From an uncultured Bacilli bacterium (GTDB lineage: Bacteria > Bacillota_I > Bacilli_A > RF39 > UBA660): a DNA stretch of 43,178 nucleotides. Below, one piece after another: positions 29,503 through 42,999 of this stretch; the first letter of the stretch is position 1; every line of letters starts with the position of its first letter. Under the pieces are notes generated by a model that was not told where the DNA came from, did not search any database, and worked only from the letters and a program-made list of their open reading frames with translations. Location: assembly GCA_947598485.1 (NCBI GenBank), contig CANQFJ010000013.1, positions 1-43,178 on the forward strand, given 5' to 3'. The position numbers and the translations under genes are program-made.

Positions 29503-29602
29503 TATCTTAAATAAATTGTTAATTTTCCAAAAAATTTAAGTTTAAAAAAAGGAAATTGGTTATTTGCCCGGTATATATAAATATAGAAAGGAGGAAATAT
29601 AC

Positions 29603-30559
29603 ATGAAAAATAAAATCATATTATTTGAAAATCAAGAGTTAAAACTTGAGGTTAATTTAAAAGATGACACCGTATGGCTTTCTCTAGAGCAAATGAGTGA
29701 ATTATTTGATCGCGATAAGTCTGTTATTTCAAGGCATATAAAAAATGCTTTAAAGGAAGAATTAGACCCAAAAGTGGTTGTTGCAAATTTTGCAACAACC
29801 ACCAAACATGGCGCTATTGCAGGAAAAAGCCAAACTCATATGACCGAATTTTATAGTCTTGATATGATTATCAGTGTTGGATATCGAGTAAAAAGTCAAA
29901 ATGGTGTTATTTTTCGTAGATGGGCTAATAAAATTTTAAAAGACTATTTAATAAAAGGCTATGCTATTAATCAAAAAAGATTAGACTATTTAGAGAAAAC
30001 AGTAAAACTTATTGATATTGCTAATCGCGGTAACGAAAGAATAACTGGTAATGAGGCAAAAGAAATATTAAGCGTTATTAATGAATACTCTAAAGCTCTT
30101 GATTTACTTGACGATTATGATCATCGAACTTTAAAAAAAGTTAAAGGGCAAAAAAGCGAGAAAATAATAACTTACAAAGAATGTATGACTGTTATTGATA
30201 AACTACGCTTTAATAATGAAAGTAGTCTATTTGCTTTAGAAAGAGATAATAATTTTGCTTCAATTATTAGAGATATTTATCAATCTTTTGACGGGAATGA
30301 TGTTTACCCTACTATTGAAGAAAAAGCTGCTAACCTACTTTATTTAACTGTTAAAAATCATGCATTTATCGATGGCAATAAAAGAATAGCCGCGACAATA
30401 TTTATCTACTTTATGCAAACAAATGGCATTCTTTATAAAGATGGTAATCAAGTTATAGACAATAACACTTTAGCATCTATAACGCTTTTAATTGCGGAAT
30501 CAAATCCCAAAGAAAAAGAGATTATGATTGATTTAATAATGAATTTTTTAACTAAATAA
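29603..30559 (+). CDS. RhuM-Doc/Fic fusion protein
   Basis: A 318-residue two-domain protein. Residues 1-130 form the RhuM domain (WLSLEQMSELFDRDKSVISRHI looks like a DNA-binding helix pair; SLDMIISVGYRV and FRRWA are its conserved core). Residues about 190-318 are a Doc-type Fic domain with HAFIDGNKR at 253-261. Fic and Doc domains transfer AMP or phosphate to protein targets; Doc inactivates EF-Tu. No Phd-like antitoxin is adjacent. AAGGAGG 7 bases upstream fixes ATG 29603; the TTG at 29564 lies before that site. It is a single gene between two housekeeping blocks, so possibly acquired. Confidence 0.9.
   Translation: MKNKIILFENQELKLEVNLKDDTVWLSLEQMSELFDRDKSVISRHIKNALKEELDPKVVVANFATTTKHGAIAGKSQTHMTEFYSLDMIISVGYRVKSQNGVIFRRWANKILKDYLIKGYAINQKRLDYLEKTVKLIDIANRGNERITGNEAKEILSVINEYSKALDLLDDYDHRTLKKVKGQKSEKIITYKECMTVIDKLRFNNESSLFALERDNNFASIIRDIYQSFDGNDVYPTIEEKAANLLYLTVKNHAFIDGNKRIAATIFIYFMQTNGILYKDGNQVIDNNTLASITLLIAESNPKEKEIMIDLIMNFLTK
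29774..29802. repeat. Perfect 14-bp-arm inverted repeat inside the RhuM domain
   Basis: GTGGTTGTTGCAAA (29774-29787), one T, then TTTGCAACAACCAC (29789-29802): perfect arms with a single central base. It encodes the VVVANFATTT stretch. In mRNA it would form a strong hairpin early in the gene; in DNA it could be a binding site. Confidence 0.85.
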
Positions 30560-31726: not shown

Positions 31727-32929
31727 TTAATATTTAAAATATTTTATTATAAAAGATGTTCCTTTATTCTTTTTTGAAGAAACTTCAATAATCCCTCCAT
31801 CTTTTTCCACAATAACTTTAGCTAAAGACAAACCTATGCCCGTACTATCATCACTTGATGCCTTACCTTTATAAAATCTCTTAAAAATATTTTGCACATC
31901 GATATCATCCATACCCTTACCAAAATCTTTAATACTAACCTTAGTATAAATATTATTTTTTTCAATATCGACAATTATTTTTTCATCACTATTTGAATAC
32001 TCAACAGCGTTTTTTAAAATATTGGTAATTGCCTCGGTTTCCCAAAATTTATCTACAAATACAAGAGCATCAGTATCTCCTTTTAGCTTAATAGTAATAT
32101 TTTTAAGATCACATATTGCCTCTAATTTAGTTATAGCATTTTTTATTATTTGACCTATTTCAACTTTTTCTTTATTAAATACTATTGTATTAGCCTCAAA
32201 ACGAGATAATTTTAAGATAGATTGAATTAAGTTATTAATATTATTAATTTCTTTTTTTACTTGTTTTAAAAACTTAACTCTCGTTTTTTCATCTACTTCA
32301 TCCTCTAAAAGATTATCAAGAGTTATCATAATAGATGTAAGTGGAGTTTTAAGTTGATGAGATATATCTTGAATGGCATTTTTAACGCTCTTTTTATCAT
32401 TTAAAGAATTTTCAGCTTCTTCTTTAAGCATTACTGCTGTTTTATATATTTCCTCTTTTAAAATAGATAATTTATCTTCTGATAACTCATCTATATCTAA
32501 GCTATAGTTTTTCTTATTAATATTTTCCAAAGATTTAATTATTTTATTTATTTCTTTATCTTGTTTCAAATTATATTTTATAAATAGGTAAAGAATTATA
32601 ACTACTAAAATTAAAACAATAATGCTTTCTAAAACTAAAAAATAAATATAAGCTTTATCATTTTCTTTAACTAAACTATCCTCTTTTAAATCATAGCCAT
32701 ATTTTTGTAAAAGGTTATCATCACTTTCAATGATATCAATAATATCTTTTTCATCGAACTCAGGATAATCTTTTTGAATTAATAAAATAATATCGTTAAT
32801 TTTATTATTAAAGTTTTCTTTATACGAATTATATTCAATAGTTTTAATTATCAAGAAAACAAAGCTAAAGAGAAAAAATGTTAAAATCGTAATAACAAAA
32901 TAATTTTTGAAAGACTCATTATTCTTCAT
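31727..32929 (-). CDS. Sensor histidine kinase
   Basis: A 400-residue membrane sensor. Helices at about 10-29 and 96-117 flank a 65-residue acidic outside loop. The HisKA dimerisation domain has DISHQLKTPLT with the phospho-accepting His191. The ATP domain has NILKNAVEYS (N box), DFGKGM (G1) and GIGLSLA (G2). The start overlaps the response regulator stop by 11 bp. It pairs with that regulator and, from position, with the ABC exporter upstream. Stimulus unknown; such sets often answer to peptide antibiotics or envelope stress. Confidence 0.95.
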   Translation of the reverse strand: MKNNESFKNYFVITILTFFLFSFVFLIIKTIEYNSYKENFNNKINDIILLIQKDYPEFDEKDIIDIIESDDNLLQKYGYDLKEDSLVKENDKAYIYFLVLESIIVLILVVIILYLFIKYNLKQDKEINKIIKSLENINKKNYSLDIDELSEDKLSILKEEIYKTAVMLKEEAENSLNDKKSVKNAIQDISHQLKTPLTSIMITLDNLLEDEVDEKTRVKFLKQVKKEINNINNLIQSILKLSRFEANTIVFNKEKVEIGQIIKNAITKLEAICDLKNITIKLKGDTDALVFVDKFWETEAITNILKNAVEYSNSDEKIIVDIEKNNIYTKVSIKDFGKGMDDIDVQNIFKRFYKGKASSDDSTGIGLSLAKVIVEKDGGIIEVSSKKNKGTSFIIKYFKY

Positions 32930-33569
32930 CTATCCTATACCCCACACCCTTAATTGTTACGATAATATCACTGCCCAGTTTTTCCCTTATTCTTTTCAAA
33001 TATACCGTAATAGTATGATCATCGACATCATTTCCTGTAAGCTGCCATATTTTATCTAGTAACGTATCCCTAGTTACTACTTTATTAATATTTAAAAATA
33101 GTAATTCAAGGATTTTTCTTTCTAAACCTGATAAATTTATCTCTGTATCATTTTTATATACTACCATTTTATCCATATCGAAAGTTATATCTTTAGCCCT
33201 TAAAATGCGATTTTTTCTCTTACGCATAAGGATATTATTAACCCGTGCTAAAAGTTCCTTGGAAGAAAATGGTTTAGTAACATAATCTTCTGCTCCTAAA
33301 GTAAGGCCTTTAACAATACTTTCCTCATCATCAATAGCAGTTAAAAATATCGTAGGAATACTTTTAGTTTGTATTTCCTTACTATATAAATCAAAGCCAT
33401 TTCCATCAGGTAAAGATACATCCAAAATAATGGCATCATAATCATTATTTAAACTTTTAGCTCCATCTTTATAAGTACTTACAATATCAATATCGTAATT
33501 ATTCTTTTGAAAGAAATAACTTAATCCTTGTGATATTTGCTCATTATCTTCGATTAATAATAATTTCAT
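32919..33569 (-). CDS. OmpR-family response regulator
   Basis: A 216-residue regulator. The receiver domain (1-115) has Asp50 in IILDVSLPDG, the acidic pair ED at 7-8, Thr in FLTAID and Lys in VTKPF. A winged-helix DNA-binding domain (about 125-216) ends in VKGVGYRID. I chose ATG 33569 with GGTGGAG directly upstream; the longer frame from 33599 adds MGYNKKHGGD, which covers the -10 region. The 11-bp direct repeats before the ABC genes are its likely target, since OmpR-type dimers bind such repeats. Confidence 0.95.
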   Translation of the reverse strand: MKLLLIEDNEQISQGLSYFFQKNNYDIDIVSTYKDGAKSLNNDYDAIILDVSLPDGNGFDLYSKEIQTKSIPTIFLTAIDDEESIVKGLTLGAEDYVTKPFSSKELLARVNNILMRKRKNRILRAKDITFDMDKMVVYKNDTEINLSGLERKILELLFLNINKVVTRDTLLDKIWQLTGNDVDDHTITVYLKRIREKLGSDIIVTIKGVGYRIDEE

Positions 33570-33587
33570 ATCTCCACCATGCTTTTT

Positions 33588-33630
33588 ATTATACCCCACA
33601 TAGTAAAAAAAGGAAAATAAATTCCTTTTT
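33588..33630 (-). terminator. Terminator after ABC permease, with -10 of the two-component genes
   Basis: AAAAAGGAA (33607-33615) and TTCCTTTTT (33622-33630) form a 9-bp hairpin that includes the permease stop codon and is followed leftward by TTA. Just beyond it is TATAAT (33593-33588), 19 bases before the regulator's ATG. The regulator and kinase may therefore have a separate basal promoter (-35 poor: TTTCCT) or depend on read-through. Confidence 0.65.
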
Positions 33631-36091
33631 AAACCGTTTCTTTTCGAATTGTATCTATCATATTTTGCTTATTTATTTTCTTTATTGAATAATGCATTAT
33701 GATATAAACAATAGCAAATACAAACACGATACATATTAAAATAGCTTTATATGGTATCACAAATGGATTTACTTTTTCGGGATCAAAAGCTTTATAAAGT
33801 AGTAAGCATGCCACTAAGCCTGAGGCTGTTCCATAAAGTAATGATTTTGAAGAATATAATATTGTTTCTAAGATAATCATTCTATTAAATTCTCTTTTTG
33901 TCATACCAATGCTTTTGAGCATTGCAAACTCTTGAGCTCTTAAATCCATATTGGAGGTAATAGTATTAAAAATATTAGTAACCCCAATTAAAGTAATTAA
34001 AGTTATAAAACCATATAAGAAAATGCTAATTACAATTACAAGAGATCTTTGAGCTCTAACTTCTTCTTCATAATTATATAATTCTATATCTTCATCATAA
34101 TCTTCTATATCTTTAACGGTAGCTGAAGAATCATCTGAATCAATATAAATATCATTTAATAAAACAGGTAAGTCAAAATAATCTTTATTAAATACAATTG
34201 TTGGACTAGATACTGTCTCATAGCCATATACAGGCTTATCACATAGAGCACCTATTACATATTCATAAGTAGCTCCTGTTATTTCATCGACAACTGGCAT
34301 TTTATCATTTTTCTTGTATTTAAATGTTTTCTTTTCTTTATCATCTATATCAGGGTCTTTATCATAAAGTAATAATTTATCTTTTACTTCATTATAATTT
34401 AAATTATTTTTCTTAACGTATTCCCTAAAAGTAGCGTCATCTAATATAATAGTATTAATATATATGCTTAGTTCGCAATCACTCTCGTCTTCGCCTTCGC
34501 AAGTATAAGTTTTAACATCTTTTTCATTCACATTTTTAATATCTTCACTTATAAAGTATTGATCCTTAAGATTATAAGTAACATAAGTTTTATTGACACT
34601 TTTAATATCCTTTATGGCCTTTATAGTATCTTCATTAATACTATGGCGGTTGGTATTATAAACGATAATGTCATAGCCATATTCAGTATACATATCATCG
34701 GTCATATTAAAGCCCTCGCCTACGAAATAAGAAAGAGCAATGAAAACAAAGATACTAACGGTTAAGGATATAACTGTGGTGCGATACTTCTTTTTACTTC
34801 TTTTTAGGTTTTTAGCTGCTAAAACACCACCCGTTTTAAATAACTTTTCAATTATTTTAGGAGTTTTCAATTTATTGGCCTTAATTGTAATATCATGCGA
34901 TGATCTTAAGTTTTCTATTGGACTAACTTTACTTGCCTTTCTCGCGGATGATAGTGATGATAAAAAGATAGTTAAAAAAGCTAAGATAATAGCAATTATG
35001 CAGGCTATAATGGATGGTGTAAAGACAATTCCTTCGCTTAGATTAATAAAATCTTTTAACAAATAATTAACAACTTTAAAGAGGATAAAATCTCCTAAAA
35101 GGCCTGTTAATATACCTATTGGAATACCAATACTTCCCAAAACTAGCCCCTCATAAATAACGCTTTTTTTAATCTGCTTTTTAGTAGCACCTACACTAGA
35201 AAGCATACCATACATTTTCATTTTTTCTGTTGTAGATATGGCAAATGAATTTCTAATGCAGAAAATACTTGCGACCATTATTATACCAATTATTATGCCG
35301 GCTACAGTAAGAAGCATATTAGTAGTTTCAGAAGAAAAACTAAAGACCTCTAAGTGTAATAAATAAGTATTTAAATAGCATCGATATTTTGGGGCTTTAG
35401 CGCCTTGTATTCCTTCATAAAAAGCTTTCCAATCATCAATATCTAGTATCTCAGAAATACTCTTTTTATATTTACTTGGTTTAGCAAGAGTAACATAAAG
35501 AGCAATATTATTTGTTTTTTCATTAGTAGTAAAACCTTTGTAAGCATAATTATCAATTACTCCAACTATCGTATACGTTTTAGACTGACTGCTGGTACTA
35601 TCCTCACTTGGATTATAACTATCAATATCCCAAGTAACAGTATCACCAATTTTTAAGTCTTTAAGATTCATTAATATTTTGGAAACAATAATTTCTTGAT
35701 TATTTTCTGGATATCGTCCGTCATAAAGATGATACTTAAGATCAATTAGATTTTGTTTAGAAACAGAATCTATTTCAAGGTTAATGCTATAGTCATTTTC
35801 TTCATCATAAACAACTTCAGTATAACCAAGAACATAAAAAGGCCTTATTTTGCTCAGATCTTTATTATGCTTTAGTGTTTCAAAATCATCATTGTTAATT
35901 CCTTCAAGGGTAAAATGATAATACCCATCGTTATCAATTGTTTCTGTTAAAAGCGTCTTTCTAAAACTTGTAACCATCGTGGCTACTGCACATATCATTG
36001 CTGTTGAAAGTACAATACCAATAATAGTACCAATAGTTCTCTTTTTATTGAGTTTCAGATTTTTATTAGTTAATTTTTTGAGAATATTCAT
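33629..36091 (-). CDS. ABC transporter permease, MacB/FtsX type, two FtsX domains
   Basis: An 820-residue permease. A membrane helix at about 20-42 is followed by an outside domain to about 255. FtsX domain 1 has helices near 258-280, 311-337 and 357-383. A second half starts with a helix near 438-457, then an outside domain of 230 residues and FtsX domain 2 (three helices in the last 135 residues). The cytoplasmic coupling motifs KMYGMLSSVGATKKQI and EFAMLKSIGMTKREF face the ATPase. This class drives extracellular events or lipid/peptide efflux by mechanotransmission. The ATG follows the ATPase stop by one base. Confidence 0.94.
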   Translation of the reverse strand: MNILKKLTNKNLKLNKKRTIGTIIGIVLSTAMICAVATMVTSFRKTLLTETIDNDGYYHFTLEGINNDDFETLKHNKDLSKIRPFYVLGYTEVVYDEENDYSINLEIDSVSKQNLIDLKYHLYDGRYPENNQEIIVSKILMNLKDLKIGDTVTWDIDSYNPSEDSTSSQSKTYTIVGVIDNYAYKGFTTNEKTNNIALYVTLAKPSKYKKSISEILDIDDWKAFYEGIQGAKAPKYRCYLNTYLLHLEVFSFSSETTNMLLTVAGIIIGIIMVASIFCIRNSFAISTTEKMKMYGMLSSVGATKKQIKKSVIYEGLVLGSIGIPIGILTGLLGDFILFKVVNYLLKDFINLSEGIVFTPSIIACIIAIILAFLTIFLSSLSSARKASKVSPIENLRSSHDITIKANKLKTPKIIEKLFKTGGVLAAKNLKRSKKKYRTTVISLTVSIFVFIALSYFVGEGFNMTDDMYTEYGYDIIVYNTNRHSINEDTIKAIKDIKSVNKTYVTYNLKDQYFISEDIKNVNEKDVKTYTCEGEDESDCELSIYINTIILDDATFREYVKKNNLNYNEVKDKLLLYDKDPDIDDKEKKTFKYKKNDKMPVVDEITGATYEYVIGALCDKPVYGYETVSSPTIVFNKDYFDLPVLLNDIYIDSDDSSATVKDIEDYDEDIELYNYEEEVRAQRSLVIVISIFLYGFITLITLIGVTNIFNTITSNMDLRAQEFAMLKSIGMTKREFNRMIILETILYSSKSLLYGTASGLVACLLLYKAFDPEKVNPFVIPYKAILICIVFVFAIVYIIMHYSIKKINKQNMIDTIRKETV

Positions 36092-36092
36092 C

Positions 36093-36764
36093 TTAATCCT
36101 CGCTTACAATCTTACCATCTTCGATTTTAATAATTCTGTCAGCACATTTAGCAATTTCCATATTATGAGTAATCATAATAATTGTTTGATTATAGTCTTT
36201 ATTAGATTTTTTTAATAAATCTACTATTTCATCACTTGCTGTACTATCAAGATTTCCTGTTGGTTCATCGGCTAGAATTATTGTCGGATTAGTAATTAAT
36301 GCCCTACCTATAGATGTTCTTTGTTGTTGCCCTCCGGAAAGCTGATTAGGAAGATGCTTTCTTCTTTCTAAAAGTCCTAATTCTTTTAACAAGTTATTTA
36401 ATTTTTCTGGTTCAACTTTTCGATTATCTAAATCAAGTGGTAAAGTTATATTTTCTTCAACATTCAAAATAGGAATCAAATTGTAAAATTGATAAATTAA
36501 ACCTACTTGTCTTCTTCTAAAAATAGCAAGTTTATCATCATCAAAAGAATAAATGTCTTTGCCATCAATATAAACTTTACCAGATGTCGGTCTATCTACA
36601 CCTCCAATTAAGTGTAAAAGAGTAGATTTACCAGAGCCTGAGGCACCTACTATTGCCACGAATTCACCCTTGTTTACGGTAAAAGATACATTATCAAGAG
36701 CAACAACTTTAGTTGTACCTTTACCATAAACTTTAGTTAGATTTTCAACTTTTAAAATTTCCAT
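36093..36764 (-). CDS. ABC transporter ATP-binding protein, MacB/LolD type
   Basis: A 223-residue ATPase energising the adjacent permease. Walker A is GASGSGKST (40-48), the signature LSGGQQQR, Walker B IILADEP with GNLDS after it, and the H-loop is MITHN. The short X-loop sequence matches the LolD/FtsE/MacB subfamily. AAGGAG precedes the ATG. It is the first gene of the ABC-two-component unit, with a promoter carrying 11-bp repeats upstream. Confidence 0.96.
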   Translation of the reverse strand: MEILKVENLTKVYGKGTTKVVALDNVSFTVNKGEFVAIVGASGSGKSTLLHLIGGVDRPTSGKVYIDGKDIYSFDDDKLAIFRRRQVGLIYQFYNLIPILNVEENITLPLDLDNRKVEPEKLNNLLKELGLLERRKHLPNQLSGGQQQRTSIGRALITNPTIILADEPTGNLDSTASDEIVDLLKKSNKDYNQTIIMITHNMEIAKCADRIIKIEDGKIVSED

Positions 36765-36858: not shown

Positions 36859-38232
36859 CTATCTTTCTATTTGATTTACGTTTGCTTCTTCTAAATCCGT
36901 GGCCATTTCTTCTGCATATAATATTTCATAATCAAGAGTTAAAACATCTGATGGATCTTGATGATTCCCATAATGATTACCTCTATACATAAAAGTTTCC
37001 CAATTATCGGGCACTGTAACCCACCAGCCTCGAAAGCTAAGATAATCAGTAACTATATTTCTAGAAAAGAAAGTATCTATCGCGGCTTGATAGCCAACAG
37101 ATTCTATATTACCTTTAAATTCTAAATACGTTTTGTCGCCGTAAAATACACTAAATTGGGAAGGTGCAAGAAATTGAGTATAAAGTCCTTTGCCATAACA
37201 TCTAGTAAAATCTTTGCTTCGGTAACGATTATATCCTACACTTGCAACACGGCAACATTCTTCATAGGCTTCACCACCCTCAGCTCTAACTCCTGCACAT
37301 ATATCATCAAGTTGTTCATAAGTTAACCCTTCTCTAGCCATTACAATTAACATTTTCTCTGGATAAGTTCTTTCCTCTGTTTCATATAAATAATATAAGG
37401 CTTCTTCAGAGCTAGCAAAGCAAATATCAGGCATTGTATTATCACACATACTAATTAATAATTTACTAGTCATTTCTTTAGTTAAATAATATCTTTGTCT
37501 TATTGCTAATTCCTTTTCTTCAAAAGTTATTTCTGGTTCTTGTTGTTGTGTACTTTCTATATAAGTCTCTGTAGGTGATGTAGGATTGTTATCAACAAGT
37601 AATTTAGATGTATCAGATAATGATTTTTCTTCAACAACACTATAAATATCACATTTATAGAATTTAGGCAATTTTATTTTTATTTGTAAATTATCATCTT
37701 CAATATTATCATCTGCACTTGGTGCAGTGCCTACATTTTGACTAATAGTATATGGTTCTTCAGATGGTTCGTCAACATATGAACCGGTATTTGCTAAAGA
37801 ATTATTATTTGTTAAAAGAGTAACTAAAGATATGGTACAAGCCGCAATAGTCCCCGAGGTTAATAAAATCTCCTTACCTTTAGTGGCAATTAAATTTTCT
37901 AAAGCTGATTTAAAGCCCTTTTTATTATTTACTTCATTTGGCACTAATTTATCTTCAGGCATTTTAGTAAGAATACTTTGTTTTAAAGTTTTTAAATATT
38001 TGCAGTCTATTACTTCAGGAAATCTGCGCAATACAAAACTTGTATTTTTTCCATATAAATACAAATTGTTTCCCTTGATAACAATCTTATAATCATTTTG
38101 AATAAATCTATCTATAATATTTTGTAAAAGGATGGCATCTTGAATTTGCGTGACATTGCCATTTTGATCAACTCTTTTACAAATTAATCTATCTCTAGGA
38201 ACGTCACTTACTCGATAAAAAACATACTTCAT
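36859..38232 (-). CDS. Membrane-anchored SleB-like cell-wall hydrolase
   Basis: A 457-residue protein. An unknown cytoplasmic N-terminal domain (1-118) is followed by a membrane helix at about 122-141 and a low-complexity outside linker (about 150-240). The C-terminal domain resembles SleB/CwlJ hydrolases: VRAEGGEAYEECCRVASVGYNRYRS contains the catalytic-type Glu in AEGGE (317-321) and the NR pair, and then APSQFSVF and a late GNHYGNH. SleB enzymes cut peptidoglycan. Here it is a vegetative anchored form rather than a clear spore enzyme. The ATG at 38232 follows a G-rich Shine-Dalgarno. It is a single gene with a good terminator. Confidence 0.8.
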   Translation of the reverse strand: MKYVFYRVSDVPRDRLICKRVDQNGNVTQIQDAILLQNIIDRFIQNDYKIVIKGNNLYLYGKNTSFVLRRFPEVIDCKYLKTLKQSILTKMPEDKLVPNEVNNKKGFKSALENLIATKGKEILLTSGTIAACTISLVTLLTNNNSLANTGSYVDEPSEEPYTISQNVGTAPSADDNIEDDNLQIKIKLPKFYKCDIYSVVEEKSLSDTSKLLVDNNPTSPTETYIESTQQQEPEITFEEKELAIRQRYYLTKEMTSKLLISMCDNTMPDICFASSEEALYYLYETEERTYPEKMLIVMAREGLTYEQLDDICAGVRAEGGEAYEECCRVASVGYNRYRSKDFTRCYGKGLYTQFLAPSQFSVFYGDKTYLEFKGNIESVGYQAAIDTFFSRNIVTDYLSFRGWWVTVPDNWETFMYRGNHYGNHQDPSDVLTLDYEILYAEEMATDLEEANVNQIER

Positions 38233-38314
38233 CTGCTCAACCCCCAATCTACTTTGTTAATTATAGCGCAAATGACAAATTATGTCAATCCTTAGTAAAC
38301 TTTTGGAAATTCTT

Positions 38315-38687: not shown

Positions 38688-38711
38688 AAAAAAAGGTAGA
38701 AATTAATCTAC
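38688..38711 (-). terminator. Terminator of the MMPL gene, overlapping its stop codon
   Basis: GTAGA (38696-38700) and TCTAC (38707-38711) with a 6-base loop, followed leftward by a run of seven T. The stop TAG is inside the right arm. Confidence 0.7.
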
Positions 38712-41700
38712 ACTTTTCTTTTTTTAACAATTAACTTATCAAAAGCTGCAAGTAAACTTGGTAGTATTAAAAGAATCAATATTGCTGAGCAAAGAGTTCC
38801 TTTGGATATCGTTATACATATCTTGGCTGCAATCGCGGAAGCAAAATTACCTACTATCAAAGTTACGATAATCAAAATCGAAGCGGAAGTTAAAATCGTA
38901 TGGATAGCTTTATTGTAAGAGTTAATTAAGGCTTCTTTAATATCCATACTCTTACGATGTTCTAGATAATATGAAGTAAATAAGATAGCATAATCAATTG
39001 TGGCTCCCATCAAAATACTTTGAACAATCAAAATGGCAATAAAGTAAACTTTTGAACCCTCGAATGTTAAGATATCCATTGTAATAAATACGGCACATTC
39101 AATCAATAATACTAAAATGAATGGTATCAATATTGACTTAAATGATATAGCTACAACAATAAAGATAAAGACCATAGTCAAAATTGTAATTAAATTAAGC
39201 TCCCCATCAAACGATTTACTCATTTCATAAGCCATTGGTGCATCACCTGCTAAATAAGCATCATGATCTTTAATATCTTTATTAGTATCTTCAACAAAAT
39301 CAAGGATATCTGGATCTTCATTTTCTAAGTTAGTAGTCAAAACAATTCGAGAATAATTTTTAGCTACTAATAAATCTTTAGAACTATTAATCAAAGTATA
39401 TGAATTTTCTATAACCTTTTGCATATCAGCATCTATGAATTGTTTAAATCTACTATCAGTTAAAATCTTTTCGTTTAGATAAGCGATAAGTTCTTCTATA
39501 GATAAAGCATAATCTTCATCATATTCATGTCTTGCCCCATAAAGAAGATATACTAAACTAACTTTAGAAGTATCAATGCCTCCCGCAAGAGGAGCAAGAT
39601 TACTGACAAGACTTGTCGAAGTAAATTTAGTATTATTTATGCTAGCTATCATTACATTATTAATAGCCTTTAATTTACTGATGCTACTAGCATTAAACAT
39701 ACTACTGTAGTTTGGATTTGGTGCAACACTATTTAGTATAAAATTAACAAATTCATATAAGTTATATTTAATAGAATTAGCATTATATGTCATATCATAT
39801 AAAGAATACATAAGTTTTAGATTATCTTCACTTACATTTGTTAAAGCACTTAACTCTTTATAAGAATATTTTTTATCATTTTGAACAGCATCCATAATCA
39901 TGTTTACTAAATTAAGTTTAGCAAGACTAGCTTCATCTAAAGAAGCATTAATTTCTTTAGTATTAATTATAAAGCTAATAAACTCTCTTGGTGTAAGGGT
40001 GTTTACAAAATTATTATTTAAATGATATAAAGTATAAATATTTTTAACATCAAATCCAAGTAAATCAGACATATTTTTATAATTATATACTTTTTTCTCT
40101 TTACTAGATTCTATTATCATATTAGCAAGTTCTAAAGTACTAATCGTATTATCATCTAAGTAGTTGCCCATTAAAGGATTATCTTTATAAGAAAGTAAGA
40201 AGCTTACAAAAGTATCAATACTCATTTTAGTTTCAGCACTATTGTTTACTTTATTGTAAAGGCCTATAACCACGTTAACCATCGAAGGACTAATGTTTAA
40301 AGTTTGGCCTAAAGTACCGGCATCCATTTTTTTGGCTGTTAAATTAGAATCGGCAAAAGTCTTAATCATTGTTAGCTCTTTAACAGTGTTCTCATCAAAG
40401 CTTTGGGCATATTCGGGATTTGGATAAACATAAGTTAAAGTAAAATTAGCAAAATCATAGAAACTTAAAGTCTCATTAGGCTCACTTATTGCATTATAAT
40501 ACTTATAAATATTTTGGACTAAAGAAGCGTCCATGCCAAATAAGGCTGCCATAGCATTACTTTCTAATTTAGTATTATTACGATCTTTATCTATAAATGG
40601 TGCCATCATTTGTAAAGATGCAATATTTTCCTTAGTAAGCATACTAGAATATGCTTCATTATTTAAAACATTATTAACAATAAAATTATAGCCTTGTGGT
40701 AAAGTAAGAGCTGTTTTAGTAGTCATGCTATTATATAAAAGATATAAGCTTTGAACATTTGCATTTGGAATACCTAAGATGTTTGCCATATCATTATAAC
40801 CCCATTTATTATATATTAAACCTTGATTAGTAAAATAAGATAATTTATTAATACTAGCCTTTATGTTATTATCTAAAGCTTTACCATAGTTAGGATCATT
40901 TGCTACTTCGTTTAAAATAAAACTAGTAAACTGTGAATAACTCATTTTATTATCTTCATTTTGATTATAATAATTATAATAAATAGTTTTAATTAAATCT
41001 TCATCTAAAGTAACATTTACACCAAGGCTTGCAAATTTATCATTAAGTTCATTATATTTTAAACCTTCACTTAAGGTATTAGCATAACATAAAACACTGC
41101 TAAAACGCTTATCATCACTTAACTTTTGACAATAATCACCAAAGTACTCTTCTTCATCATTATTATATATTAAAGCAATTTGATTTTCTTTATTAAATAT
41201 TTCCTTTACTTTATCGTTTTCTTCACCTGTAAATTCATATTCAAGATTACTCTTTAAAAGAAAACTTCCTGCGAAGATAACTATAAAGATTACTATTGCT
41301 GCCCTACGAATAAAGAAGCTAAATTTTCCTAAAGCTGACAAAGATATTTTGGGACGCTTTTTAGTAGTTTTCATAATTAGTTTATCAAATAATAAAATCA
41401 AAGATGGTAAAACAAAGAAGATACTAATTAAACTAAATATAACGCCTTTAGCTAAAACCAATCCTAAATCAATGCCAATTGTAAAGCTCATAAAAACTAA
41501 AGCTAAAAGACCAACAATGGTTGTTACTGAGCTACTTGATATTGACAAGAAAGAATGATATAAAGCTTCCTTCATAGCTTTTTTATTATCAGGTTCATGC
41601 TCTTTTTCTTGACGATATCTATTCATAAGCATTATTGAATAGTCCATAGAAAGAGCCATTTGTAAAATTGCACATATGGAATTGGTTATATTGGAAACAT

Positions 41701-42310
41701 TTGGGAAGATAATATTTGTACCCTTATTTAAGAAGACGGCAAGACCTATGACAAATAAAAATAAGAACGGTTCAACATAAGAATCACACATGATAATCAA
41801 AATTACCATGGCGCTACATATAGCAAGAGCTACAACCCAAATTTTTAACACCGGAGCATTATAGGTAGATACATCACCTGAAGTATATATTTCATAGTCA
41901 TCATATTTATCCATAATCGTAGAGTATACCTTGGCAGCATTTTTAGAATCTGCTCCACCATCAACATTTACTTTATAAAAGGTATACTCATCTTTATTAT
42001 AATCTTCGGTGTCATCATATAAGACCTCATCAACATTTTTTATACTGGCTAGATAGTTTTTAACCTCATCTTTTTCATCATCTTTTAGGTCTTTAAACAT
42101 AACCTCTAGAGTACTACTTTTATCAGTAGCAAACTCCTCATTCATGATGTCTACTCCTATTTTAGTAGATGAATCATCAGGAAGATATCTAGTTAAATCA
42201 TAATTAATTTTTACTTTACTACTTAAAAATAAACATAATCCTGATAAAATAATAAATATTACAAGGATATAGTTTCTTTTTTCGACTATAAAATCCGTAA
42301 TCTTACGCAT
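38708..42310 (-). CDS. MMPL/RND-family membrane transporter with repeat-bearing loop
   Basis: A 1200-residue transporter. The N-terminal helix (14-30) and outer domain 1 (35-150) precede five helices (about 155-310) with the SMDYSIMLMNRYRQE core of MMPL/SSD proteins. A sixth helix near 335-352 follows. A very long outer segment (360-1020) comes next, then the second membrane half with GATIDYAILFTSYYLEHR. The two DY motifs are the proton-relay type. Substrate unknown; relatives export lipids or hydrophobic compounds. The outer segment contains about six degenerate 80-residue repeats (430-963), making it much larger than typical family members. It is divergent from a TetR gene that probably controls it. 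GAGGG lies about 9 bases before the ATG. Confidence 0.93.
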   Translation of the reverse strand: MRKITDFIVEKRNYILVIFIILSGLCLFLSSKVKINYDLTRYLPDDSSTKIGVDIMNEEFATDKSSTLEVMFKDLKDDEKDEVKNYLASIKNVDEVLYDDTEDYNKDEYTFYKVNVDGGADSKNAAKVYSTIMDKYDDYEIYTSGDVSTYNAPVLKIWVVALAICSAMVILIIMCDSYVEPFLFLFVIGLAVFLNKGTNIIFPNVSNITNSICAILQMALSMDYSIMLMNRYRQEKEHEPDNKKAMKEALYHSFLSISSSSVTTIVGLLALVFMSFTIGIDLGLVLAKGVIFSLISIFFVLPSLILLFDKLIMKTTKKRPKISLSALGKFSFFIRRAAIVIFIVIFAGSFLLKSNLEYEFTGEENDKVKEIFNKENQIALIYNNDEEEYFGDYCQKLSDDKRFSSVLCYANTLSEGLKYNELNDKFASLGVNVTLDEDLIKTIYYNYYNQNEDNKMSYSQFTSFILNEVANDPNYGKALDNNIKASINKLSYFTNQGLIYNKWGYNDMANILGIPNANVQSLYLLYNSMTTKTALTLPQGYNFIVNNVLNNEAYSSMLTKENIASLQMMAPFIDKDRNNTKLESNAMAALFGMDASLVQNIYKYYNAISEPNETLSFYDFANFTLTYVYPNPEYAQSFDENTVKELTMIKTFADSNLTAKKMDAGTLGQTLNISPSMVNVVIGLYNKVNNSAETKMSIDTFVSFLLSYKDNPLMGNYLDDNTISTLELANMIIESSKEKKVYNYKNMSDLLGFDVKNIYTLYHLNNNFVNTLTPREFISFIINTKEINASLDEASLAKLNLVNMIMDAVQNDKKYSYKELSALTNVSEDNLKLMYSLYDMTYNANSIKYNLYEFVNFILNSVAPNPNYSSMFNASSISKLKAINNVMIASINNTKFTSTSLVSNLAPLAGGIDTSKVSLVYLLYGARHEYDEDYALSIEELIAYLNEKILTDSRFKQFIDADMQKVIENSYTLINSSKDLLVAKNYSRIVLTTNLENEDPDILDFVEDTNKDIKDHDAYLAGDAPMAYEMSKSFDGELNLITILTMVFIFIVVAISFKSILIPFILVLLIECAVFITMDILTFEGSKVYFIAILIVQSILMGATIDYAILFTSYYLEHRKSMDIKEALINSYNKAIHTILTSASILIIVTLIVGNFASAIAAKICITISKGTLCSAILILLILPSLLAAFDKLIVKKRKV
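39422..41023 (-). repeat. Tandem ~80-residue protein repeats in the MMPL outer loop
   Basis: Residues 430-963. Units start near 483, 563, 643, 723, 796 and 877, with partial units before 483 and after 963; spacings are 80, 80, 80, 73, 81 and 87. Each has the same plan: a helix ending in L-x2-(L/M), a short loop and an (L/A)LxG-type stretch, then V-x2-LY-x-LYN, then an (F/Y)-x-x-F-(I/T)-L segment, NPxY and a closing LD-x-x-(T/S). The DNA itself is diverged, so the repeats are old. Confidence 0.8.
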
Positions 42311-42341: not shown

Positions 42342-42427
42342 ATTATATATGCAATTTTTTTAAAATAAAAGGTCAATTTTATTGATAATGTCTAAATTTT
42401 GACATATGTTTAAAATTTGTATAAAAT
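42342..42427. promoter_or_regulatory. Divergent MMPL/TetR promoter region with operator
   Basis: On the plus strand TTGACA (42399-42404), 17 bp and TAAAAT (42422-42427) serve the TetR gene. On the minus strand TATAAT (42347-42342) serves the MMPL gene. The near-perfect palindrome TGTCTAAATTTTGACA (42389-42404) covers the TetR -35 and is the likely TetR operator. Confidence 0.65.
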
Positions 42428-42450: not shown

Positions 42451-42999
42451 ATGAAAGTTAAAAATAAAAATATATCCTCTATTAACACACAAAAGAACAT
42501 TAAAGAAGCATTTGCTATATTAATGTCTAAGAAGAAGGAACTATCGTCTATCACAGTTACTGAGCTAGTTAAAATCGCCGGTATAACAAGATCATCTTTC
42601 TACACCCACTATGAAAATATTTATGATGTTGCTAAAGAAATTCAAGATGACACTTTAAAATTAATTGATTTTAATGAAGATGATATTGATAATCCTGAGA
42701 ACATAAAAAAGTATTTAAATAAAGTTATTGATTATTTAAAAAATAATGAGGAAATATATAAACTGTTAGCTTCAAGTAGAGAACCACTTATCTTTATTGA
42801 TAGACTTAATAAAATGATTTATGAAAAAATAATTCGTTTAGAAAATATTAAAGGCAAAGATATTGAACTTAAAATTGCTTTTTTTACTGATGGTTGTGTT
42901 AGTCTATTTTTAAAATATTTTCGTGGCAAGTTAAATAAATCACTTGATGAAATTGGCGAATATATTAACACTGTTATCGAAGATTATTTATTAAAATAA
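42451..42999 (+). CDS. TetR-family transcriptional regulator
   Basis: A 182-residue regulator. The N-terminal helix-turn-helix is at about 17-60: ITVTELVKIAGITRSSFYTHYEN has the family's T-x-x-E-(L/I)-x-x-x-A-G-(V/I)-x-(R/K)-x-x-(F/L)-Y-x-(H/Y)-(F/Y) pattern. The C-terminal helical part is the ligand/dimer domain. The Shine-Dalgarno is weak (AGAGATG). Its position opposite the MMPL transporter and the palindrome between them suggest it represses both genes until a transported compound binds. Confidence 0.93.
   Translation: MKVKNKNISSINTQKNIKEAFAILMSKKKELSSITVTELVKIAGITRSSFYTHYENIYDVAKEIQDDTLKLIDFNEDDIDNPENIKKYLNKVIDYLKNNEEIYKLLASSREPLIFIDRLNKMIYEKIIRLENIKGKDIELKIAFFTDGCVSLFLKYFRGKLNKSLDEIGEYINTVIEDYLLK

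Follow-up and report, generated by a model that had tools for sequence, protein, structure and literature searches.

The window, a stretch of 43,178 nucleotides from the 1.26 Mb genome of an uncultured gut Bacilli bacterium, contains a divergent gene pair: an MMPL/RND exporter gene on the minus strand (38708–42310, 1200 residues) and a TetR-family regulator gene on the plus strand (42451–42999), with a palindrome between them. The 1200-residue ORF matched Pfam MMPL (PF03176) in two stretches with a score of 137 bits against a curated cut-off of 20.5, its two six-TM halves scored 76 and 72 bits separately, and the genome has no other MMPL gene. Each six-TM bundle contains an Asp–Tyr pair that was invariant in an alignment of ten sequences, Asp223–Tyr224 in the first (41639–41644, minus strand) and Asp1106–Tyr1107 in the second (38990–38995, minus strand). 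Both are putative proton-relay pairs, a role that Asp223–Tyr224 may have by analogy with the DY pairs of MmpL proteins (PMC12803245). In a full-length AlphaFold2 model the core matched the structures of MmpL5, MmpL4 and MmpL3 with VIA Z scores of 17–19. The protein thus has an RND-type core with both Asp–Tyr pairs.

TM7 and TM8 are separated by a loop of about 670 residues. Hydrophobic segments and alignment place within this second outer (porter-2) loop an array of seven helical units of approximately 80 residues each. The earlier note, made from the letters of this DNA, had proposed that six or more helix-rich repeats of this size at 39422–41023 enlarge the outer domain of an MMPL transporter, and the analysis agreed with it: on the minus strand the interval corresponds to residues 430–963 of the MMPL ORF, and one unit more than the claimed minimum was found. 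The self-comparison that it had suggested gave ungapped 40-residue self-matches with scores of 74, 70 and 69, compared with 52 for the best of 30 shuffles. A unit profile was built from six hand-cut units and then iterated over relatives; we count seven units rather than six because the six-unit profile picked up one more, and the iterated profile gave scores of 52–73 bits for all seven. All of the units, read on the minus strand, were located with this profile. Unit 1 (residues 429–496; 40823–41026) is the N-terminal cap and is position-specific across genera. It is followed by unit 2 (505–576; 40583–40798) and unit 3 (584–656; 40343–40561), both of which are also supported by a two-unit structural model, by unit 4 (666–736; 40103–40315) and by unit 5, which is of a short type (about 744–809; 39884–40081). 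Cross-genus comparison identified the penultimate unit 6 (817–890; 39641–39862) as position-conserved and unit 7 (911–977; 39380–39580) as the C-terminal cap; the latter is diverged and leads back to the porter domain (NYSRI, residues 985–989).

The unit consensus is approximately S-x-E-L-S-x-L-L-G-I-D-x-x-x-V-x-x-L-Y-x-L-Y-N-S-(loop)-K-L-T-L-x-E-F-V-x-F-I-L-x-x-V-x-x-N-x-x-Y-S-x-x-L-D-x-x-x-I-x-x-L, its most constant features being LYxLY, the helix start [ST]xxEFxxF and LD. The motif quoted in the earlier note (V-x2-LY-x-LYN...NPxY...LD-x-x-T) is only approximate, with NPxY present in two units and DPNY in a third. Unit 1 has in addition a loop, N-x-[DN]-x-x-N-K-M-[ST]-x-x-[EDQ]-F, that is conserved between genera. 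A Pfam search with the unit gave no family above its cut-off, and HTH_26, Nop, RPT and the other Pfam matches in the array, all of them under the cut-off, were rejected as chance. A sequence search of the PDB with the unit revealed no convincing relative, the top-scoring match being 8vd6 (E 1e-4, 18 residues only). When 395 genomes of the class and 392 of the phylum were searched with the unit, array-bearing relatives were found, and credible matches were confined to MMPL ORFs. Sub-threshold unit-profile matches outside MMPL (L075, L076, L078, L088 and L089) were judged to be chance because the ORFs resemble an AAA-type ATPase, an HD-domain protein and a lipoate-ligase-like protein. No account of an array of this kind turned up in the literature searched. 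The transporter family is known, but the array in it is a new module that has no name and varies in copy number; its helical module is a domain family absent from Pfam. The statement in the earlier note that no MMPL protein with this array was known stands in so far as no described family covers the unit, but the array is not a one-off; it is a variable-copy feature of one MMPL clade in the class.

The full-length AlphaFold2 model was made from seven sequences only and was poor overall (pLDDT 59.8, pTM 0.34), with the array part mostly at 65–83; each unit repeated the same helix series. The two-unit model, based on non-overlapping two-unit windows with 17 in-register rows, had a pLDDT of 81.3 and a pTM of 0.60. 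Its predicted helices (29–36/108–115, 40–53/119–132, 61–72/141–152 and 84–97/164–177) recurred in the two neighbouring units at 79–80 residues, in line with a repeated fold at the proposed period of 80 residues; the lack of such a fold, which the earlier note had named as refuting, was thus not seen. The predicted array helices are short, at 8–18 residues. Against the PDB, the two-unit model gave a best Foldseek E-value of 0.16 and VIA Z scores of up to 3.6 (67 residues, 4.0 Å), weak matches of which many were EF-hand proteins. The unit models share with such proteins (calcineurin B, calmodulin and MLC1P) the order of a helix–loop–helix pair with a short beta bridge, and the predicted succession of helix, short beta loop, helix, helix, beta loop and helix agrees with an EF-hand pair. 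The array might be a calcium-stiffened rod, its units being degenerate, calcium-binding EF-hand pairs, an explanation favoured by this order of elements, by the number of EF-hand proteins among the weak fold matches and by the unit 1 loop, which looks like an EF loop. However, the 12-residue EF-hand calcium-loop pattern was found in its strict form in none of 200 units and in a relaxed form in 11, mostly unit 1, whose conserved loop is near to a calcium loop but has Asn at the first ligand position. The fold scores are low, and no EF-hand chain in the PDB matched the unit sequence at E < 0.05. We regard a calcium-stiffened rod as very improbable and calcium binding by the units as unlikely; the predicted unit fold is at most EF-hand-like.

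At the same site, relatives have 0, 1, 2, 3, 4–5 (diverged), 6, 7, 8 or 9 units. Array-bearing relatives of the same family have six (L052), seven (L011–L014), eight (L004, L047, L048 and L109) or nine units (L005, L049, L050 and L110). Elsewhere in the class, the profile detected one unit (L103 and L149), two (L106 and L150) or three (L102 and L105), and short MMPLs of ~690 residues (e.g. L026 and L030) have none, with otherwise the same core and insertion site. The distances between the porter-2 anchors were about 46 residues for no unit, 100–127 for one, 190 for two, 260–301 for three, 337–392 for four and 449–472 for five, where the copy numbers of three to five for L053, L054, L151–L156, L160 and L161 come mainly from length and loose resemblance, the profile detecting few or no units. 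The distances increased further to 511–547, 578–598, 671–678 and 739–763 residues for six, seven, eight and nine units respectively. The best-fitting step of the insert lengths was 79.5 residues, tighter than in all 100 random-length sets, although this fit is descriptive because the points are related by descent. As the number of units varies from 0 to 9 at one site, the length of the outer loop is quantised and can change in steps.

An insert-length label of one unit for L030, L033–L040 and L118 proved to be an anchor artefact, in which the N-core profile ended early, and those of these proteins that were inspected have no unit. Length alone was also rejected as proof of an array, since L037–L040 reach 1214–1258 residues as short MMPLs with a C-terminal extension and no array. 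In these proteins, which come from the same family as the window, the array-less MMPL is joined in frame to a C-terminal part that has a hydrophobic, signal-like stretch and long helical heptad repeats of the form xxxLxxG, with a TIGR03057 match in L038. This extension is possibly an alternative outer helical structure for the pump. In Subdoligranulum (L118), a part similar to it is a separate overlapping ORF. A search of viral contigs found no relative, and a plasmid search found Clostridia relatives, none with a profile-detectable unit; in Monoglobus (L117), a single unit-like stretch was seen by eye.

The insert-bearing proteins formed one clade (support 0.94) in a tree built from the MMPL core, and all 20 of the array-bearing family members in it had at least six units. 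One-unit forms were scattered among many-unit forms, indicating that copies were gained or lost more than once. A unit-by-unit comparison across genera showed that the first, penultimate and last units mostly match their positional counterparts, with the middle units out of register. This is how a tandem array with caps behaves when its changes fall between them. Nei–Gojobori dN/dS values against two congeners were 0.25–0.28 for the array and 0.04–0.10 for the N- and C-terminal core; the wider ranges are 0.25–0.29 for the array and 0.04–0.13 for the core segments, making the array value about 2–7 times that of the core. This shows purifying selection, or functional constraint, that is weaker on the array than on the core.

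The product of the divergent gene is a TetR-family regulator of the TetR_C_8 type (PF14278, 2.8e-10). A divergent TetR homologue was present in 15 of the 19 array loci examined (window included), and two others were cut near a contig end; apart from this gene, no neighbour encoded by an ORF of at least 80 residues was widely conserved in the 19 loci. The TetR gene also adjoins the MMPL gene in Monoglobus and several of the short and one-unit forms, which share core and insertion site with the array protein and differ from it in having no unit or one. The palindrome TGTCTAAATTTTGACA (42389–42404), a probable TetR operator, lies in the 140-bp stretch between the divergent genes. Its pattern, TGTCNAAATTTNGACA, is matched perfectly at a single place in the genome of the window and occurs once per fetched locus across several genera, at the same intergenic position where checked. 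Compared with shuffles, palindromes in single intergenic regions were not unusual in the AT-rich DNA here; the case for TGTCTAAATTTTGACA as an operator comes from its conservation in relatives and its uniqueness in the genome. We infer that the TetR protein binds this palindrome. There is good evidence that the TetR and MMPL genes constitute a dedicated regulator–pump pair.

In one congener (L007), fabZ-like, accC, accD, accA, fabI, ACP and acyltransferase genes run directly up to the pair, and the ORF layout is the same in two others (L002 and L003). This fatty-acid-synthesis operon, which abuts the TetR–MMPL pair, occupies positions 203–5283 in L007, 204–5303 in L002 and 79–4742 in L003, and the single AccA of each of these congeners adjoins the pump. 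The contig of the window stops 179 bases past the TetR gene, and the AccA of its genome is on another contig, as a 553-residue ORF different from the AccA of the congeners. The link with fatty acids therefore comes from the congeners and not from the strain of the window. In two other genera (L047 and L049), the annotated neighbours of the pair are unrelated to fatty-acid genes. A similar layout has been described for Staphylococcus aureus FarE, a fatty-acid efflux pump with a divergent TetR regulator, FarR (PMC12671165). This likeness is one of gene layout, which is common for regulator–pump pairs, and the array is a feature of the window protein, none being described for FarE in the available part of that source (PMC12671165).

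The closest parallel to the insert itself is in the mycobacterial pumps MmpL4 and MmpL5, in which, as in the array protein, porter domain 2 of an MMPL core carries, between TM7 and TM8, an insert made up entirely of helices. In MmpL5, a coiled-coil insert of 196 residues is needed for efflux (PMC12501195), and the MmpL4 coiled coil has been seen protruding (PMC12803245); the insert forms a stalk, is indispensable to export and helps trimers to form (PMC12501195, PMC12803245). However, the mycobacterial insert consists of a single long antiparallel coiled coil, whereas the present one has seven globular 80-residue modules with short predicted helices and variable copy number. Furthermore, MmpL4 and MmpL5 have MmpS partners, and no conserved MmpS-like neighbour was found here among ORFs of at least 80 residues.

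The reading that we prefer, with a confidence about evenly balanced between its being right and wrong, is that the locus encodes a TetR-regulated, proton-driven MMPL exporter, probably of fatty acids or similar amphiphiles, with a stalk or lid of capped helical modules. The pump would export its substrate at the expense of the proton gradient, most likely fatty acids or similar membrane-disturbing amphiphiles, since both the FarE/FarR precedent (PMC12671165) and the fatty-acid operon of the congeners point to a lipid-like substrate. TetR would control the pump gene through the palindrome. The second porter domain appears to have expanded by tandem copies of an 80-residue helical module, with a cap at either end; the modules may pack one after another into an elongated extracellular stalk or lid over the pump. 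The number of middle modules would set the length of the stalk and drift between lineages. A role as stalk or lid is suggested because the porter-2 coiled coil is needed for efflux in MmpL5 (PMC12501195) and protrudes in MmpL4 (PMC12803245). The stalk could guide cargo into the wall, hold the protomers together or bind a partner; a peptidoglycan wall is likely, as five transpeptidase-domain proteins are encoded in the genome. The earlier note had suggested that the array could reach through the wall, or bind a ligand or partner along its length; the mycobacterial stalk is a precedent for a stalk in this loop.

A bolder form of this reading, which we hold only tentatively and rather doubt, is that one porter-2 module was duplicated to give one to nine modules between fixed caps, making a modular, length-adjustable stalk. 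This would be a second solution to carrying cargo off the membrane, unrelated to the mycobacterial coiled coil, with copy number as a ruler of wall thickness. A loosely constrained spacer would also agree with the faster substitution in the array and with the drift in its copy number. The array could be a nearly neutral expansion, produced by tandem duplications in a tolerant surface loop and kept only as far as it can fold. The range of six to nine copies between genera of one family, the raised dN/dS and the mixture of one-unit and many-unit relatives in the core tree would all be expected from this, but the single units have dN/dS values of 0.16–0.38, well under 1, the caps are position-specific and none of the array-bearing family members in the tree falls below six units, and we consider such an expansion unlikely. 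Helical repeat arrays commonly serve as binding scaffolds, and the array may instead be a binding platform for a ligand or for a wall or host partner, in which more copies give more avidity and transport is secondary. Purifying selection on the caps and array and the strongly conserved loop of unit 1 are consistent with binding. However, what the units share at consensus positions is for the most part hydrophobic or helix-capping residues, separated by variable positions; they have no surface motif in common, and no partner gene conserved in the array loci was found. We judge this platform to be about as improbable as the neutral expansion, and keep to the regulated exporter with a stalk or lid.

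Little is understood of the RND/MMPL pumps of Gram-positive bacteria that work with no outer-membrane partner. The present clade, in which one site holds a ladder of 0 to 9 modules, is a natural length series for the role of porter-2 helical inserts, which is also a question for the mycobacterial pumps of siderophore export and bedaquiline efflux. With the palindrome and the neighbouring genes, both the regulation and the substrate are accessible to direct tests.

Three further parts of the window were also noted. The 462-residue protein encoded at 36859–38247 had no match in Pfam or NCBIfam. The protein encoded at 29564–30559 combines an N-terminal match to the RhuM family with a C-terminal Fic/DOC domain. 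At 31727–36764, genes for a histidine kinase, a response regulator, an 820-residue FtsX/MacB-like permease and an ABC ATPase follow one another, in what looks like a two-component-controlled ABC export module.
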